A stretch of 64,000 bases of DNA from contig CADDYV010000001.1 in assembly GCA_902810695.1 (NCBI GenBank), positions 62,001-126,000 on the forward strand, in the 5' to 3' direction. Origin of the DNA: Actinomycetota bacterium. Its GTDB lineage: Bacteria; Actinomycetota; Rubrobacteria; Rubrobacterales; Rubrobacteraceae. Under the pieces are notes generated by a model. That model was not told where the DNA came from, searched no databases, and saw only the letters and a list, made by a program, of their open reading frames with translations. Below, one piece after another: positions 6,683 through 45,479 of the stretch (positions are counted from its first letter, which is position 1; the number at the start of each line of letters is the position of its first letter). The position numbers and the translations under genes were made by a program.

Positions 6683-6922
6683 GAGAATGGTTCCTTTCTC
6701 TGTATACGGCTATTCTTACCCGAAGACGCTCTTTTTCCCCGGCGGGCCGTGCCGTACCTCGCTTTGACGGCGTAACGGATACGCAGACCGGTTACGGCGC
6801 AACTTGCAACCTTGTAGAATTATACAGTTGGTGATGAGTGTGGACACAGATCATTTTCCCAGCGGTTGTGCCTGCGGATTCCGAGCGTACGGCTGGACGG
6901 TAGTCGTCGAGGAGGTACTTTG

Positions 6923-9418
6923 ATGGAAAGGTCGTTTAAACACCTCGTCGTGGTCGGTTCCTCCGCAGGCGGTATCGGGGCGCTCTCCGGGATGATCGCC
7001 AACCTTCCCGAGGACTTCGCCGCTCCGATCGTGGTGGCCCAGCATCTGGACCCGAAGCGCGAGAGCCACCTGCAGCAGATACTCTCGCGCCGGAGCCCGC
7101 TGCGGGTGAAGACCATTACCGATCACGAGCCGCTGGAGGCCGGGGTGATCTTCCTGGTTCCCGCCAACCGCCACGTGAAAATCACCGACTCGGAGATCGA
7201 GCTGAAGGACGAGAGGTCCGCCAGGCAACCCATGCCCTCCATAGATCGCCTGATGGAGAGCGCCGCCGAGGTCTTCGGGGAGGATCTTATCGCCGTGGTC
7301 CTGAGCGGCACCGGCACCGACGGCACCGAGGGGGCGCGGACCGTCAGCGAGGCGGGGGGCACGGTCATCATCCAGGACCCGGAGACCGCCGAGTTCGGCG
7401 AGATGCCGCGCTCGCTGGCTCCGAGCACCGTGGACATCGTCTCTTCCCTGGAGAGGATCGGACCGATCCTCCAGAACCTTATCTCGGGTATCACGGTGCC
7501 GGAGGATGGACCTGAGAATGAGGAACGCGCTCTGGAGCGATTTCTGGGGAAGATTTACCAGAACCACGGCGTAGACTTCAGGAGCTACAAGCGTCCCACG
7601 ATCATGCGCCGCCTGGGCCGCCGGATGGCCGCCACCGACTGCGAGAGCATCGAGGAATACTCCAGTTACCTGGAGAATCATCCGGAAGAATACCGGAAGC
7701 TAATAAACGCCTTTCTCATCAACGTAACCGAGTTCTTCCGCGACCCGGAGCTGTTCGAGTACCTCAGAGAAAAGGTGCTGCCGGAGATCATCGAGGAGGC
7801 CCGCGAGAAGGATAACCAGCTCAGGATCTGGTCTGCCGGCTGCTCCACCGGCGAGGAGGCCTACTCACTGGCGATTCTCGTCTCCGAGGTGCTGGGCCAC
7901 GAGGCCGGGCTCTTCAACGTGCGGATCTTCGCCACGGACATAGACGAGGACGCCGTCAAGTTCGCCCGGCGTGGCATCTATCCCCCCTCGGCACTCAAAG
8001 GGCTCTCCGAGGAGCAGATCGGGCTCTACTTCACCGAGGAGCACGGCTCTTACCAGGTGAAAAAGCAGATCCGGAGCATGATCGTCTTCGGGGTGCATGA
8101 CCTGGCCCAGCGGTCACCCTTCCCCCAGATAGACATGGTGGTGAGCCGCAACGTTCTGATTTACTTCTCCAGCGAGCTGCAACGGCGGGCTTTGCAACTG
8201 TTCGCCTACTCCCTGCGGGACGGCGGCTACCTGGTGCTGGGCAAGGCCGAGTCTCCCGCTCCTCTGGCCGAGTTCTTCGCTTCCGTGGACTCTCACAACA
8301 AGGTCTACCTCCGCCAGGGGCAGCGCTTTCTCATGCCGCCCACGCTCCCGGCGGGACCCGTGCGGCAACCGCCTCCGGAGCGAAATTCTGGCGAGCTTGA
8401 GGTTCAAGGGAGCCAGACCGAAATACGACCGCGTTCAACCACTTCCGGCTTCGTGAGCGAGGACGTGCTCAACCAGCTGCCGGTGGGTGTCGTGGTGGTG
8501 AATCGCGACTACATCATCGCGGAGATCAACGACCCGGCCCGGCGGCTGCTCTCGATTCCGGGCGTGGGCGTGGGGAAGGATTTTCTGCACTCGATGCAGG
8601 AGGCTCCCTACGCGGTGGTGCGCAGAGCCATAGACGAGGCTTTCAGGAGTAGGGAGAGTAGGCGAACCGCCGAGTTCACGATCGAGGAGCCCGCAACTGG
8701 CGAGCCCAGACACCTGCAACTCACGTGCTATCCCCGGCGCTCCAACAGCGAGAACCGGCGGGTGGAAAGCTTGCTGATCGTGGTCGAAGACATTACCGCG
8801 GCGGTGCGAACGCGGCGCCTCACCGAGAGGAATCGCCAGCTCGAAGAGGCCAACAGGGACCTCAGCCAGCTCACCGAGGAGCTTCGGACGGCGCACGAGG
8901 AGTCCCTGGTGAACACAGAGGAGGCGCAGGCCGCCGCCGAGGAGGTCGAAACCCTCAACGAGGAGCTGCAGGCCACCAACGAGGAGCTCGAAACCCTCAA
9001 CGAGGAACTGCAGGCTACCGTCGAGGAGCTGAACACCACCAACGATGACCTGCAGGCCCGCAGCCAGGAACTGCAAGAGATGGCGCGGAGAGGCGAAGAG
9101 GAGCGCGGTCGGTTGCGAAAAATACTGGATAGCGCTCCCACCGCTTTGCTCGTCGTGGATGGCGAAGGCAGAACCGTATTCGCCAACGCGGCCTACCACC
9201 GGCTATTCAGTGGTAGAGATCCTGCCTTCCTGGACCCTTCCGGCGGCCCGCTTGCTCCCCAGCATACGCCCCGGGCGAGGGCGGCTCGCGGGGAAGCGTT
9301 TGATGAGGAGTTCAGCGTCGAGGTGGAGGGTGCAATTAAACGCTTTCGGATCGAGGGACAACCGCTCGATGGCGAAGATGAGCTTAGCAGCGTGCTCGTC
9401 ATCCAGGATACCGGCTAG
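6923..9418 (+). CDS. CheB-CheR-PAS fusion (chemotaxis-type methylesterase/methyltransferase hybrid)
   Basis: About 831 residues. Order: CheB methylesterase (residues 5-185) with triad candidates Ser14 (GSSAGG), His41 (AQHLDP) and Asp133 (GTGTDG). Next CheR methyltransferase (about 205-465) with the SAM-binding RIWSAGCSTGEEAYSLAI. Then a PAS domain, a coiled coil of repeated ETLNEELQATNEE units (about 665-720), and a C-terminal PAS. ATG 6923 has GAGGAGGT 7 nt upstream. No CheA, CheW, chemoreceptor or flagellar gene is in the window. Such CheB/CheR/PAS proteins usually serve sensory signalling rather than motility. It lies just upstream of a histidine kinase gene on the same strand. Confidence 0.92.
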   Translation: MERSFKHLVVVGSSAGGIGALSGMIANLPEDFAAPIVVAQHLDPKRESHLQQILSRRSPLRVKTITDHEPLEAGVIFLVPANRHVKITDSEIELKDERSARQPMPSIDRLMESAAEVFGEDLIAVVLSGTGTDGTEGARTVSEAGGTVIIQDPETAEFGEMPRSLAPSTVDIVSSLERIGPILQNLISGITVPEDGPENEERALERFLGKIYQNHGVDFRSYKRPTIMRRLGRRMAATDCESIEEYSSYLENHPEEYRKLINAFLINVTEFFRDPELFEYLREKVLPEIIEEAREKDNQLRIWSAGCSTGEEAYSLAILVSEVLGHEAGLFNVRIFATDIDEDAVKFARRGIYPPSALKGLSEEQIGLYFTEEHGSYQVKKQIRSMIVFGVHDLAQRSPFPQIDMVVSRNVLIYFSSELQRRALQLFAYSLRDGGYLVLGKAESPAPLAEFFASVDSHNKVYLRQGQRFLMPPTLPAGPVRQPPPERNSGELEVQGSQTEIRPRSTTSGFVSEDVLNQLPVGVVVVNRDYIIAEINDPARRLLSIPGVGVGKDFLHSMQEAPYAVVRRAIDEAFRSRESRRTAEFTIEEPATGEPRHLQLTCYPRRSNSENRRVESLLIVVEDITAAVRTRRLTERNRQLEEANRDLSQLTEELRTAHEESLVNTEEAQAAAEEVETLNEELQATNEELETLNEELQATVEELNTTNDDLQARSQELQEMARRGEEERGRLRKILDSAPTALLVVDGEGRTVFANAAYHRLFSGRDPAFLDPSGGPLAPQHTPRARAARGEAFDEEFSVEVEGAIKRFRIEGQPLDGEDELSSVLVIQDTG

Positions 9419-30591: not shown

Positions 30592-31350
30592 CTAGACCGT
30601 GAACTTCAGCCCATCTTTAGCCACGACGACTTCTCCTGAGTAGCCGCGCCCGATTTCGGATACTAGGTCGAGCCTGTCGGCTGTCGGGTAGATGTGGGTT
30701 ACCACCACCCGCTCGACGCCGGCTTCGCTGGCGATCCGGGCTACTCCGCCCGGGGTAAGGTGCCCTGGCACCGGGGCATCGTCGGGGAAGGAGCACTCGG
30801 AGAGCAGGGTGTGCGCTCCGCGCGCCAGATTCACGACTGACTCGCTGTATTCGGTGTCGCCGGTGTAGACGAGGGAGCCACCTTCCGTCTCCAGGCGGTA
30901 GGCGATACTCTCGGGGCGGTGCTGCGCTGGAGCCCACCGGATGCGGCAGCCTGGAAACTCCACGGGAAAGGCGCATTCGTGCGGTAGCTGTGATATCTCC
31001 GTCTCGTAATCGCCGAGCATCCACTCTCCCCAGACGGCGATGATCTTGCTCCAGAAATCTTCGAATGGTTCGGGGCCGTAGATGGCGAGCGGCCGGGTGC
31101 GCGGTTCCGTGGCGCCGTAGTTTATGGAGAAGAGCAGCGGCACGACGTCGGAGGTGTGGTCGGGGTGGAAGTGGGTGAAGAAGATGCGGTCGGTGGCGAA
31201 GGGGTCGAGACCTGCGCGGAGCATCCCGCGGACGGCGCCGGAGCCCAGGTCAAGCACGAGCATCTCTCCGCCTGTCTCTACAACCACACAACTCTGCCTG
31301 CGGGCGAGGCGCGGCACCACGGTTCCCGAACCGACGACCGTTATCTCCAG
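30592..31350 (-). CDS. MBL-fold hydrolase, RNase Z-like, with a probable CTG start
   Basis: About 252 residues. Zinc motif THFHPDHTSDV, later TGDTEYSESV and a C-terminal VVVTHIYP. The first ATG/GTG/TTG in frame is GTG 31320, but the ten codons before it encode LEITVVGSGTVV, exactly the usual N-terminus of this family. An in-frame TAG (31354-31356) lies just upstream, so the start must be CTG 31348-31350 (or ATA). A GGGAGG at 31358-31363 lies 7 nt from the CTG. The stop of the upstream PAP2 gene falls inside this stretch, so the two are coupled. Confidence 0.85.
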   Translation of the reverse strand: MEITVVGSGTVVPRLARRQSCVVVETGGEMLVLDLGSGAVRGMLRAGLDPFATDRIFFTHFHPDHTSDVVPLLFSINYGATEPRTRPLAIYGPEPFEDFWSKIIAVWGEWMLGDYETEISQLPHECAFPVEFPGCRIRWAPAQHRPESIAYRLETEGGSLVYTGDTEYSESVVNLARGAHTLLSECSFPDDAPVPGHLTPGGVARIASEAGVERVVVTHIYPTADRLDLVSEIGRGYSGEVVVAKDGLKFTV

Positions 31351-31353
31351 TTT

Positions 31354-31962
31354 CTAGCCTCCCTTCTCTTTTCGAAAAGCCCACGCGAGCCCGGCTGCTC
31401 CCAGGAGAGCGCCGCCAATGGTATCCGAGGCCCAGTGCGTCCCCAGGTATACCCGGCTCGATATCATGCTTGCCAGGAAGATCAGGATGAATATGCGCGT
31501 CGCCCGGCTCTCGGAGAGTGCGAAGAGCGAGCCCAGCACGAGGACCGTCCGGATCACATGCCCGCTCGGATACGGGAAGCGATGGTCTACCTGCACGAGC
31601 GGTGTGGGGTCCGGCACGCGGCTGATCCCGACGGGCATAGCCGGCTGCGGCAGCAGCATCTTCATCGCATACTCCAGCGTGCCCGTTGCGAAGAAAGCTA
31701 TGATTAGTCGCCTGGAGAGCGAGCGGTGGCCGCCGAGGAATAAAGACGCGGTTAGCGCGAGGAAGGCGGATCCGGCGATCTCCACGCTTCCGGCTATGGA
31801 GAGGAGCCGACCGAGGTCATCTAGCGGCTCTGAGGCTCGGGCTCGGGCCGAGCGGAACGCCCAGAAGTCGAACTCCTGCAACCATCCGCTTCCGACGACT
31901 GCGGAAAAAGCGGTAAAGGTTCCAGCCAGTAGAGGGAACGCGGCGCTGCCAGGGCTTTTCAT
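31354..31962 (-). CDS. PAP2-family membrane phosphatase
   Basis: About 202 residues with five to six membrane segments. The PAP2 catalytic motifs are visible: FPYPSGHVIRTVLVLG (PSGH) and SSRVYLGTHWASDTIGG (SR..LGTHW.SD). These enzymes dephosphorylate lipid phosphates such as undecaprenyl pyrophosphate or phosphatidic acid at the outer face of the membrane. ATG 31962. Its stop codon overlaps the ribosome-binding region of the MBL gene that follows, so the pair is an operon. Confidence 0.88.
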   Translation of the reverse strand: MKSPGSAAFPLLAGTFTAFSAVVGSGWLQEFDFWAFRSARARASEPLDDLGRLLSIAGSVEIAGSAFLALTASLFLGGHRSLSRRLIIAFFATGTLEYAMKMLLPQPAMPVGISRVPDPTPLVQVDHRFPYPSGHVIRTVLVLGSLFALSESRATRIFILIFLASMISSRVYLGTHWASDTIGGALLGAAGLAWAFRKEKGG

Positions 31963-35461: not shown

Positions 35462-35536
35462 ACCCCTACTCGCGGACTGTGGGCGCTTGTTTTATCCTTC
35501 GGGCTGTGATGTCTGGAGCCGGAGGGCCATAAGATC

Positions 35537-36355
35537 CTGGAAATCTTCGAAGCGGTTTTTCTCGGCGTGGTCCAGGGGCTCACGGAGTTCCTGCCCGTCT
35601 CGAGTTCGGGACACCTGCTGCTGGCGCAGTATTTCCTGGGTCTGAACGAGAGACGTTTCGGGCTCGCTTTTGATGCGGCGCTGCATCTCGGGACGGCCCT
35701 CGCCGTTCTGTTGTTTTTCTGGCGGGATATCCTGCGGCTGGCTAGAGCGTTTTTGAGGTCGTTGCGGCGGGGGCCAGACTTTCTGGATCTCGATGAGCGC
35801 ATGGCCTACATGCTCATCGTCGCGTCCATCCCGGCGGTGATCATCGGGGGGCTGTTCGAGGGGTTTTTCGCGACAGCGGTTCGCTCTCCCTGGGTCGTGG
35901 TCTTCACCCTGGTGCTGGTGGGCGCGCTGTTTCTGGTCGGCGAGGCCGTAGGGCTCAAAAGGCGCAGGGCCTCGAAGCTCTCTTTTGTGGAAGCGTTCGG
36001 GATCGGACTCGCGCAGGCGGCGTCGCTGGTTCCCGGCGTCTCGCGCTCGGGGGCGACGATAACCCTGGGGCTGTTCCTGGGACTCCGCCGTGAGGAGGCG
36101 GCGCGATTCTCCTTCCTGATGAGCTTCCCGATCACGACCGGCGCGGGGCTTCTGAGCCTGGCCCAGTCCGCAAGCGGAGGTATGGGCGCCCACCAGGTGG
36201 CGATGTTCGTCGCGGGGTGCATCTCCGCCGCTCTGGTGGGATACCTAGCGATCCGCTTTCTCCTGAACTACCTGGCCGGGCATAGCCTGCGGGTCTTCGC
36301 CTACTACCGGTTCGGGCTCGCGGCCTTCGTCGCGCTCCTCTTGCTCATCTTTTGA
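35537..36355 (+). CDS. uppP: Undecaprenyl-diphosphatase, probable non-AUG start
   Basis: About 272 residues, normal for UppP. Motifs EFLPVSSSGHL and VPGVSRSGATITLGLFLG are visible in a polytopic membrane protein. It recycles undecaprenyl pyrophosphate and gives bacitracin tolerance. The first ATG/GTG/TTG in frame is GTG 35567, in the middle of the conserved first helix. Upstream codons read ILEIFEAVFLG, as in other UppP proteins, and the frame has no AUG-like codon up to a TGA at 35507. CTG 35537 (or ATC 35534) is the likely start, with GGAGGG at 35521-35526. A one-base sequencing error is the rival explanation. Confidence 0.9.
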   Translation: MEIFEAVFLGVVQGLTEFLPVSSSGHLLLAQYFLGLNERRFGLAFDAALHLGTALAVLLFFWRDILRLARAFLRSLRRGPDFLDLDERMAYMLIVASIPAVIIGGLFEGFFATAVRSPWVVVFTLVLVGALFLVGEAVGLKRRRASKLSFVEAFGIGLAQAASLVPGVSRSGATITLGLFLGLRREEAARFSFLMSFPITTGAGLLSLAQSASGGMGAHQVAMFVAGCISAALVGYLAIRFLLNYLAGHSLRVFAYYRFGLAAFVALLLLIF

Positions 36356-36604: not shown

Positions 36605-37714
36605 GTGTTTGCCAGGGATAGGCAGGAGGCGCCCGAAGAGATGGGTGTGCTCCGGCAGAAGATAGACACGGTGGATGCGGAGATCGTGCGCCTGCTCGAC
36701 GAGCGGGCGCGGTTTGCGCGCAGGATCGGGGAGATCAAACGCGAGAAAGGGCTCGACGCCTACGCCCCGGCGAGAGAGCGGCTGGTGCTGGACCGGGTGA
36801 TGTCTCTGAGCGAGGGGGAGTTCCCCAGATCGGGGCTCGAAGCCGTTTTCCGGGAGATCATCTCCTGCTCGATATCGCTCGAAGCCAGGTTGAAGGTCGC
36901 CTATCTCGGACCGGAGACTACCTTCACCCACGAGGCGGCTCGCAGGTCTTTCGGGACCAGCGTGGAGATGGCGCCGCGTGCGACGGTAGCGGAGGTCTTT
37001 ACGAATGTGGAGCGCGGTGAGGCTCAGTACGGGGTAGTTCCCGTCGAGAACTCTATGGAGGGAGCCGTAGCCCATACCCTGGACGAGCTGATGAACAGCC
37101 CGCTGAAGATCTGCGGCGAAATCTACCTGCCCGTCTCGCAGAACCTGCTCTCGAAGGAGGAGTCTCTGGGCAGCGTCTCGCGCGTCTTTTCCCACCCGAT
37201 GGCGCTCTCTCAGGTTTCTTCCTGGCTCCGCCGCGAGCTTCCTCGCGCGAGGGTGGAGGAGGTGGAGTCTACGGGAGAGGCGGCGCGCAAGGCTGCCAGA
37301 GAAGCTGGGGTCGCCGCCGTCGGGAGCGAGCTCGCCGCCGAGGTTTACGGCCTGAACGTCCTGGCGCGCAACATCCAGGACGCCAGGGCCAACGCCACCC
37401 GGTTCATCGTGCTCGGAAAATCCTGGTCGGAGCCTACCGGCAGGGACAAGACGAGCGTGGTCTTCTCGGTCAAGGACCGTCCGGGAGTCTTGAGGGACGC
37501 GCTCGCTTCGTTCGCCGAGGAGGGTATCAACCTGACCCGCATCGAGAGCCGCCCGAGCCGCAAGCGGGCCTGGACATACGTTTTCTTCGCGGACTTCCAG
37601 GGGCACCCACAAGAGGAGAGGGTGAAGCGAGCATTGATGGCCCTCGAAGAACACTGCCCGTATGTCAGCGTGATCGGGGCCTACCCCGAAGTCTCCGCCG
37701 AGGTGTTCGGGTAA
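36605..37714 (+). CDS. pheA: Bifunctional chorismate mutase/prephenate dehydratase (P-protein)
   Basis: 369 residues. Chorismate mutase (about 13-85): VLRQKIDTVDAEIVRLLDER and GEIKREKG. Prephenate dehydratase (about 97-280): VAYLGPETTFTHEAARRSFG, VPVENSMEGAVAHTLDEL and the TRFIVLG region. Then an ACT domain (about 285-365) with the phenylalanine-binding ESRP motif in NLTRIESRPSRKRAW. It makes phenylpyruvate from chorismate in phenylalanine synthesis and is probably feedback-inhibited by Phe through the ACT domain. GTG 36605 has GAGGAG upstream. A probable attenuator lies before it. Confidence 0.95.
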   Translation: MFARDRQEAPEEMGVLRQKIDTVDAEIVRLLDERARFARRIGEIKREKGLDAYAPARERLVLDRVMSLSEGEFPRSGLEAVFREIISCSISLEARLKVAYLGPETTFTHEAARRSFGTSVEMAPRATVAEVFTNVERGEAQYGVVPVENSMEGAVAHTLDELMNSPLKICGEIYLPVSQNLLSKEESLGSVSRVFSHPMALSQVSSWLRRELPRARVEEVESTGEAARKAAREAGVAAVGSELAAEVYGLNVLARNIQDARANATRFIVLGKSWSEPTGRDKTSVVFSVKDRPGVLRDALASFAEEGINLTRIESRPSRKRAWTYVFFADFQGHPQEERVKRALMALEEHCPYVSVIGAYPEVSAEVFG

Positions 37715-37723
37715 GGAACGGCT

Positions 37724-37951
37724 CTGGACTTCAAGAGCGCCGCGAGGGAAGTTTTGAGAGAGGTCGGACACCCCCTGCACTACACGGATATAACCGAGCT
37801 TGCGCTGGAGGCCGGATACCTTGAGAGCGCCGGGAGAACCCCGCACAACACCATGCGCGCGCGGCTCTCGGTGGACGTGAGGGATAACCCCGATACACCT
37901 TTCGCTCAGACGGCCCCCGGCGTCTACGGCCTCAAAGGTATGCGAGGGTAA
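37724..37951 (+). CDS. HARE-HTH domain protein, probable CTG start
   Basis: About 75 residues forming a single HARE-HTH (HB1/ASXL-type) winged helix: LDFKSAAREVLREVGHPLHY, ITELALEAGYLESAGRTP and TPFAQTAPGVYGL. From TTG 37754 the first helix would be lost; CTG 37724 restores it and has AAGGAA (37713-37718) 5 nt upstream. No ATG/GTG/TTG occurs between the preceding stop and the helix. HARE-HTH domains join chromatin or restriction factors in larger proteins; a free-standing one is unusual. It follows pheA at 9 bp. Confidence 0.72.
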   Translation: MDFKSAAREVLREVGHPLHYTDITELALEAGYLESAGRTPHNTMRARLSVDVRDNPDTPFAQTAPGVYGLKGMRG

Positions 37952-44489: not shown

Positions 44490-45479
44490 GTGGATTTGAG
44501 CATCGAACTCGCCGGCGTCGGTGTCCTGCAGGCCGTCGTGTATCTGCTGTTCATCAGGGCTGTGGATCTCTACGAGCGAGAGTCCTTTTTCTACGTGATA
44601 CCGGTTTTCGTGTGGGGGTTTACGGTCGCGGTTATTATCTCCTTGCTCTTCGAGTCCGTGGTCGAATATACGCTGAGCGCGGTAGCGACGGCGAAGGTCG
44701 CGCGGCTGGTGACGGCGGTCGTGGGGGCCCCCGTGATCGAGGAGTGCGCCAAGGGGCTGGCGCTGCTTCTGGTGTTTGTGGTGTCGTATCTGGTGGCCCG
44801 TCATCGGGGTGCGATCGAGTTCTCCGGGGTGATGGATGGGATAGTCTACGGCTCAGCGGTAGGCTTCGGATTCTCCATCGCCGAGGACCTCTTCTACTAC
44901 GCTCACTTCGGTCCGCAGGCTTTTATTGTGCGCCGGATCTTCGGCGGGTTCGCCCATGCCGCTTTTACCTCTCTTACGGGCGTGGGGTTCGGGCTCATAC
45001 CCTGGGTCCGCAGCAGTTTTCTGAAGGTTCTCTTGCCCATCCTGGGGCTTGCCGGGGCGATACTCCTTCATGCCACATTCAACTTTACCGCCACGCTGCT
45101 CGGACCGCTGGCGTACGCTTTCCTGCTCGCCGTCGTGATCCTCTACGTCTTGCTGATCATCGTCTGGCTCGCTGTGGAGCGGCGGGTGATCCGCAACGAG
45201 CTGCGTGACGAGATGTACGATGGAACCATCAGCCCGGAGGAATACGCCATGATGCCAACCTACTTCCGACGAAAGGCCCACTACGCAAAGCTCGTCCTCT
45301 CGGGGCATTTGAGAGCCTGGCACAGGTCGCGCAAAGCTCATGCTCTCGCGGTAGACCTCGCCTTTACCAAGCGCCTCGCCCGGCGTACCCGCTCACCCTG
45401 GCAGCAGGACCGGGCGAACAAGCTCCGGCGCCGCATCTGGGGCTTGCAAGACGTGTCATCTCCCGGGGCCGGAGCCTGA
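44490..45479 (+). CDS. PrsW-family intramembrane metalloprotease-like protein
   Basis: About 329 residues with eight membrane segments. PrsW (M82) motifs are visible: APVIEECAKGLALLL (EE pair), FGFSIAEDLFYYAHF (second acidic pair), FGGFAHAAFTSLTGVGFG and LHATFNFTAT (His). It has a charged C-terminal extension of about 90 residues. In Bacillus PrsW cleaves an anti-sigma factor; the target here is unknown. Start GTG 44490 or TTG 44496. Its stop overlaps the likely CTG start of mobA. Confidence 0.88.
   Translation: MDLSIELAGVGVLQAVVYLLFIRAVDLYERESFFYVIPVFVWGFTVAVIISLLFESVVEYTLSAVATAKVARLVTAVVGAPVIEECAKGLALLLVFVVSYLVARHRGAIEFSGVMDGIVYGSAVGFGFSIAEDLFYYAHFGPQAFIVRRIFGGFAHAAFTSLTGVGFGLIPWVRSSFLKVLLPILGLAGAILLHATFNFTATLLGPLAYAFLLAVVILYVLLIIVWLAVERRVIRNELRDEMYDGTISPEEYAMMPTYFRRKAHYAKLVLSGHLRAWHRSRKAHALAVDLAFTKRLARRTRSPWQQDRANKLRRRIWGLQDVSSPGAGA

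Follow-up and report, generated by a model that had tools for sequence, protein, structure and literature searches.

Where does translation begin in a gene whose conventional start codon is missing from its place? The question is raised by an MBL-fold metallo-hydrolase gene on the minus strand of the 64,000-nucleotide stretch of DNA analyzed here (the window), which lies downstream of, and in the same frame as, a gene for a PAP2-superfamily phosphatase (PF01569; positions 31354 to 31962, minus strand). The PAP2 gene ends in a TAG at 31354 to 31356, and the minus-strand bases at the junction read ...AAGGGAGG C TAG AAA CTG GAG ATA ACG GTC GTC GGT TCG GGA ACC GTG GTG... A direct reading of the sequence finds no ATG, GTG, or TTG in the MBL frame between this TAG and the GTG at 31318 to 31320 (minus strand; GTG 31320), from which a mechanical ORF list starts the gene as one of 242 aa. 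Three nucleotides after the TAG there is instead a CTG (31348 to 31350, minus strand), preceded at a distance of 7 nt by a GGGAGG Shine-Dalgarno (SD) sequence (31358 to 31363, minus strand); read from this codon, the coding sequence spans 30592 to 31350 (minus strand) and encodes 252 aa plus a stop, with the protein beginning LEITVVGSGTVV... The original prediction had placed both the in-frame TAG just upstream of the CTG and the GGGAGG 7 nt before it, and the bases bear it out on both counts. On the comparative evidence set out below, we consider it very probable that translation of the MBL gene starts at CTG 31350-31348.

Anti-SD duplex energies were computed, with 1000 random positions as a background. 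Pairing before the CTG amounts to -11.3 kcal/mol, a value attained by 0.1% of the random positions and ranking 11th strongest among the 33 loci described next, whereas that before GTG 31320 is poor, at -3.4 kcal/mol.

An orthologue search across 60 genomes returned some match in 51 of them and a clear MBL orthologue (at least 60% identity) in 31 of the 35 other genomes of the same family. Together with the window's own gene and one further genome, these gave 33 Rubrobacteraceae loci, in which the codon aligned with the CTG is ATG (15 loci), TTG (9 loci), or GTG (7 loci) in 31 cases, the other two being the CTG of the window and an ATC (L013). The original prediction, that a non-AUG start is forced and is most likely this CTG, agrees with this table, as the codon sits exactly on the orthologue start column and the upstream stop excludes other starts. 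It had also proposed an alignment of orthologues at the N terminus as a check; in that alignment, all 33 loci run from the CTG column and none from GTG 31320. Variation within the column is concentrated at the first base, with almost none at the third and none at the second, as for NTG starts. Downstream of it, residues 2 to 10 are conserved at the protein level, and the third bases of codons 5 to 7 and 9 to 11 vary by 1.29 to 1.71 bits, against at most 0.68 bits for the first two; the ten codons 5' of the column lack protein-level conservation. Together, these patterns are the signature of a protein that begins at the CTG. As a separate observation, the MBL orthologue of genome G027 (L013/L062) has ATC at the start column and is without a conventional start back to its own upstream stop.

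The protein itself matches the Pfam models Lactamase_B_2 and Lactamase_B above the cutoff. An AlphaFold model, built from 20 aligned sequences (18 of the 33 loci and two distant ones), has a mean pLDDT of 95 and places β strand 1 at residues 2 to 7. Throughout the aligned sequences, the HxHxDH motif and further ligands (H60, H62, D64, H65, H144, D165, and H219) are invariant, as are G7, G9, and T10. GTG 31320 is the first conventional codon in the frame and would yield a protein shorter by ten residues. We regard a start there as very improbable, since no orthologue aligns with it, its SD pairing is weak, and initiation at this codon (codon 11) would, judging from the model, cost the protein β strand 1 along with G7, G9, and T10. 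The claim of the original prediction that the first ATG, GTG, or TTG lies past the conserved N-terminal strand thus finds agreement in the bases, the orthologues, and the model alike. The closest folds to the model are YhfI, the Bacillus anthracis ELAC homologue, and RNase Z. YhfI (6kns/6knt), RNase Z (1y44), and Apyc1 (7u2s) share both fold and sequence kinship with the MBL protein, but at only about 19 to 26% identity in the fold search. The protein scores 118.8 bits against the RNase Z equivalog TIGR02651, below the curated cutoff of 292.95, and 100.9 bits against the cyclic nucleotide-degrading phosphodiesterase model NF041851, below the curated cutoff of 400. As it misses both equivalog cutoffs, our designation goes no further than an MBL-fold hydrolase of the RNase Z/YhfI group.

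The junction admits two further readings. The PAP2 and MBL genes share a frame with only TAG AAA between them, so that readthrough or recoding of the TAG would produce a PAP2-MBL fusion. We judge this to be extremely remote: in the relatives, the in-frame upstream stop lies anywhere from 2 to 310 codons away, and conventional starts occupy the MBL column, and a fusion would make the strong SD at the junction pointless. The absence of a conventional start codon from its place could also mark a decaying pseudogene that has lost its start, but this is highly unlikely given that the frame and the metal ligands are intact and the SD is kept. Moreover, dN (0.18 to 0.23) is well below dS (1.1 to 1.7) in comparisons with 11 relatives, which argues for a functional gene under purifying selection.

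If CTG is the start of the MBL gene, one may ask whether comparable starts occur around it. We defined a start as forced when no ATG, GTG, or TTG is present up to the conserved N terminus and compared syntenic stretches of the relatives. The original prediction had put the number of such genes in the window at four, with the MBL gene as the cleanest, and among window genes with homologues in the fetched stretches, exactly three more forced starts were found. The first is a HARE-HTH gene (PF05066; 37724 to 37951, plus strand; 75 aa), with a forced CTG at 37724 to 37726, which follows by 9 nt the TAA (37712 to 37714) of a chorismate mutase/prephenate dehydratase gene (36641 to 37714, plus strand). 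It is absent from the ORF list because, at 75 aa, it falls below the list minimum of 80 aa. The count covers 32 of 40 listed places (of the other eight, two are full length and six are partial or paralogous); in these 32 loci, the start column reads GTG (14), CTG (8), TTG (5), or ATG (5). The CTG is forced, with no conventional start upstream, in seven of its eight loci, and its carriers include two isolates, Rubrobacter taiwanensis (G010) and Rubrobacter marinus (G023). Between carriers, dS is at least 0.64 and rises to saturation, with dN at 0.05 to 0.26, which is indicative of purifying selection. The recurrence of the CTG in 8 of 32 relatives, together with this strong purifying selection, means that sequencing errors cannot explain it. 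A tree of 29 genomes includes five of the CTG tips, the other three CTG genomes having too few genes for inclusion. These tips fall into two groups, namely, the window's own genome (G000) and G010 with genus g3; genus g2, in which the HARE-HTH start is TTG, is sister to G000. This topology suggests that the HARE-HTH CTG arose at least twice.

The second case is a MobA-like NTP transferase gene (PF12804; 45476 to 46060, plus strand), whose CTG (45476 to 45478) overlaps the upstream TGA as CTGA. At this overlap, the homologues (n = 12) have CTGA in eight instances, ATGA in three, and neither in one. The CTG is strictly forced only in the window, L081, and L085, a GTG further in being usable for several others. 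With so few forced instances, and with a C before TGA often to be expected in GC-rich genes, this family constitutes weaker evidence, and we treat its CTGA starts as probable. The third is a BacA/UppP gene (PF02673; 35534 to 36355, plus strand) with a forced ATC at 35534 to 35536 (or a CTG at 35537 to 35539), in which a GGAGG (35521 to 35525, plus strand; -10.0 kcal/mol) stands 8 nt before the ATC. After the upstream stop, the first conventional start in this frame appears only at 35567, within the conserved N terminus; the ATC is on the orthologue start column, and the CTG is the next codon. Over 31 loci, this column has TTG 12 times, GTG 12 times, ATG three times, and ATC once (the window). 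In the near-identical G001 and G022, an ATC lies one codon before the aligned column, where G013 has ATG.

These neighbors bear directly on the possibility of a one-base sequencing or assembly error in the MBL gene, with the true codon being TTG, ATG, or GTG. The CTG of the MBL gene is private to one genome, a draft of 148 contigs, and every conventional start is a single base away from CTG; errors do occur in the data set, as evidenced by frameshift artifacts in the R. marinus stretches. Against this, a random one-base error in a start codon would generate CTG in about 1/7 of cases; in the MBL and HARE-HTH families, every departure from a conventional codon at the start column is either CTG or ATC. 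Among 32 separate assemblies, the CTG of the neighboring HARE-HTH gene is present in 8, including those of two isolates, and the same genome carries the MobA-like CTG and the UppP ATC, each of which is echoed in relatives. We accordingly see an error as unlikely. The pattern of departures and the HARE-HTH recurrence speak for CTG initiation within the family and thereby raise the odds that the MBL CTG is real, while falling short of proof.

How frequent such starts are was gauged in a pooled survey of Rubrobacteraceae (735 gene instances in the 43 of 81 clusters that were usable), in which the gene for NuoD had been dropped as a seed, being found in only 6 of 39 genomes, and the gene at 6866 to 9418 was likewise a poor seed. 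The survey returned 15 forced rows, comprising seven near-cognate starts (four CTG and three ATC) in three gene families and eight artifacts, which were excluded as gaps, frameshifts, or misalignments (four in L115 of R. marinus and one each in L061, L127, L085, and L099). In L115, from the R. marinus chromosome (G023), several rpsB-side genes appear frameshifted relative to all relatives, which suggests indel errors even though the genome is complete. The rpsB-recA clusters contained no near-cognate forced start. Odd start columns at L067 pheA (GTC) and at the 32901 ORF were set aside on account of conventional starts upstream or a variable N terminus. For comparison, a distant family of actinobacteria whose genomes are large served as the control clade (10 of 19 clusters usable) and yielded no near-cognate forced start in 125 instances, its two forced rows resembling out-of-frame artifacts. 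The difference between 7 in 735 and 0 in 125 is too small to show that Rubrobacteraceae are unusual, and we do not claim a family-wide excess.

The published record concurs with the original prediction that CTG starts are rarely annotated (PMC5622118, PMC9845219, PMC4633059). Switches to CUG were recorded for 2 of 61,358 AUG, 1 of 5,080 GUG, and 1 of 2,468 UUG starts, a total of 4 among some 69,000 ancestral starts (PMC5622118), and CUG is quoted as the start of 0.024% of ORFs in 69 genomes (PMC9845219). CTG was not enriched in a mycobacterial start codon selection, at 0.03% (PMC4633059), and CUG is described as a poor initiator in Escherichia coli (PMC11497404). The rates in PMC5622118 and PMC9845219 may have been lowered by annotation that disfavors CTG. 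The MBL CTG resembles these rare cases (PMC5622118) in the codon and in its attainment by a one-base switch; in contrast to the rarity that they represent, the HARE-HTH gene has kept CTG across a clade, in 8 of 32 loci.

As to mechanism, the CTG could have arisen from TTG by one T-to-C change, a single transition in a GC-rich genome in whose families TTG is frequent. The strong SD within the end of the PAP2 gene would place the 30S subunit on the near-cognate MBL CTG, most likely making up for the weakness of the codon, and the initiator tRNA would insert fMet there. The PAP2 stop lies only 3 nt upstream, which makes a handover of terminating ribosomes possible, and PAP2-terminating ribosomes might be passed to the CTG by termination-reinitiation. 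A start within a few nucleotides of an upstream stop is also seen in the HARE-HTH (9 nt) and MobA-like (overlap) genes but not in UppP, where the upstream gene ends 72 nt before the ATC. Expression of the MBL gene would be lower and more IF3 sensitive than from an ATG. For this CTG, the sequences show its position, the lack of any other start, its place on the orthologue start column, the SD, and the purifying selection on the gene; that it initiates in vivo, that fMet is inserted, and that the gene is coupled, attenuated, and sensitive to IF3 are what we infer. An altered initiator tRNA was considered as a cause and rejected, as the anticodon stem of the genome's tRNA-fMet has the usual GGG/CCC; with an ordinary initiator tRNA, an altered one is not needed for CTG starts.

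Precedents for parts of this scheme exist in several reports. Reinitiation is helped by a short stop-to-start distance and an SD (PMC2268962). In Staphylococcus aureus, a strong SD offsets the weak codon at AUU and AUA starts; cvfC1 (AUU) and ccpN (AUA), with an extended SD and low output, offer the same arrangement of a strong SD directing a weak codon as the MBL gene, with the difference that those starts use other codons and were shown by Ribo-Ret and reporters (PMC13009471). In Streptomyces, IF3 represses the GTC start of sigR, which, like the MBL gene, is an actinobacterial gene with a near-cognate start misplaced by annotation; unlike the MBL CTG, that start is a GTC, experimentally proven and conserved across Streptomyces (PMC5472188). 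A further parallel is infC, which encodes IF3 and starts at ATC in Streptomyces (PMC5472188) and at AUA in S. aureus (PMC13009471). Its AUU, AUC, and AUA starts, which serve IF3 autocontrol, combine a near-cognate codon with a good SD, so that the MBL gene would be expected to be IF3 sensitive likewise; those starts are, however, conserved for autoregulation (PMC5472188, PMC13009471), whereas the MBL CTG is confined to a single genome.

The infC gene of Rubrobacteraceae, taken up as a positive control, unexpectedly departs from this set in showing GTA rather than AUU, AUC, or AUA. The IF3_N domain occurs in 38 of the 39 genomes of the family. Of 30 infC loci fetched (L260 to L289), 29 were compared, L278 being excluded because it begins at a contig end. 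In 28 of the 29, including the window's own genome (L273, G000:C26), a GTA invariant at all three positions stands exactly 7 nt after GGAGTG, amid codons whose third bases vary; the exception is L281, with ATA at this position and a leader shorter by one base. In 24 of the 29 loci, the stretch from the upstream stop to this codon is free of conventional starts. This conservation points to infC starting at GUA in the family, under IF3 autocontrol. A less likely alternative would have infC begin at the out-of-frame GTG in GGAGTGGTG: the absence of one base in L281 brings that GTG in frame, but elsewhere the reading requires a frameshift, and the GTG lies inside or beside the SD. Our literature searches returned no account of infC starting at GUA.

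Near-cognate starts are of a known kind; new here are their recurrence, the clade-wide HARE-HTH CTG, the probable CTGA starts, and the infC GTA. For genome annotation, pipelines that accept only ATG, GTG, and TTG truncate genes like that of the MBL-fold protein, and short ones, such as the 75-residue HARE-HTH, may be missed. A GUA start mutation in E. coli recJ was reportedly studied and found to be suppressed through IF3; if infC starts at GUA, the known autocontrol by IF3 would extend to a codon otherwise met as that mutation. It is conceivable, though we lean somewhat against it, that Rubrobacteraceae use the near-cognate starts of the HARE-HTH, MobA-like, UppP, MBL, and infC genes as a stable tier of gene regulation. 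If this is true, the level of IF3 would jointly determine how much IF3 is made and how strongly the near-cognate gene set is expressed. The clade poses the question of why it accepts CUG, such a poor start in E. coli and in mycobacteria, and a CTG kept for so long offers a natural system in which to ask whether weak starts have been tuned or are simply tolerated.
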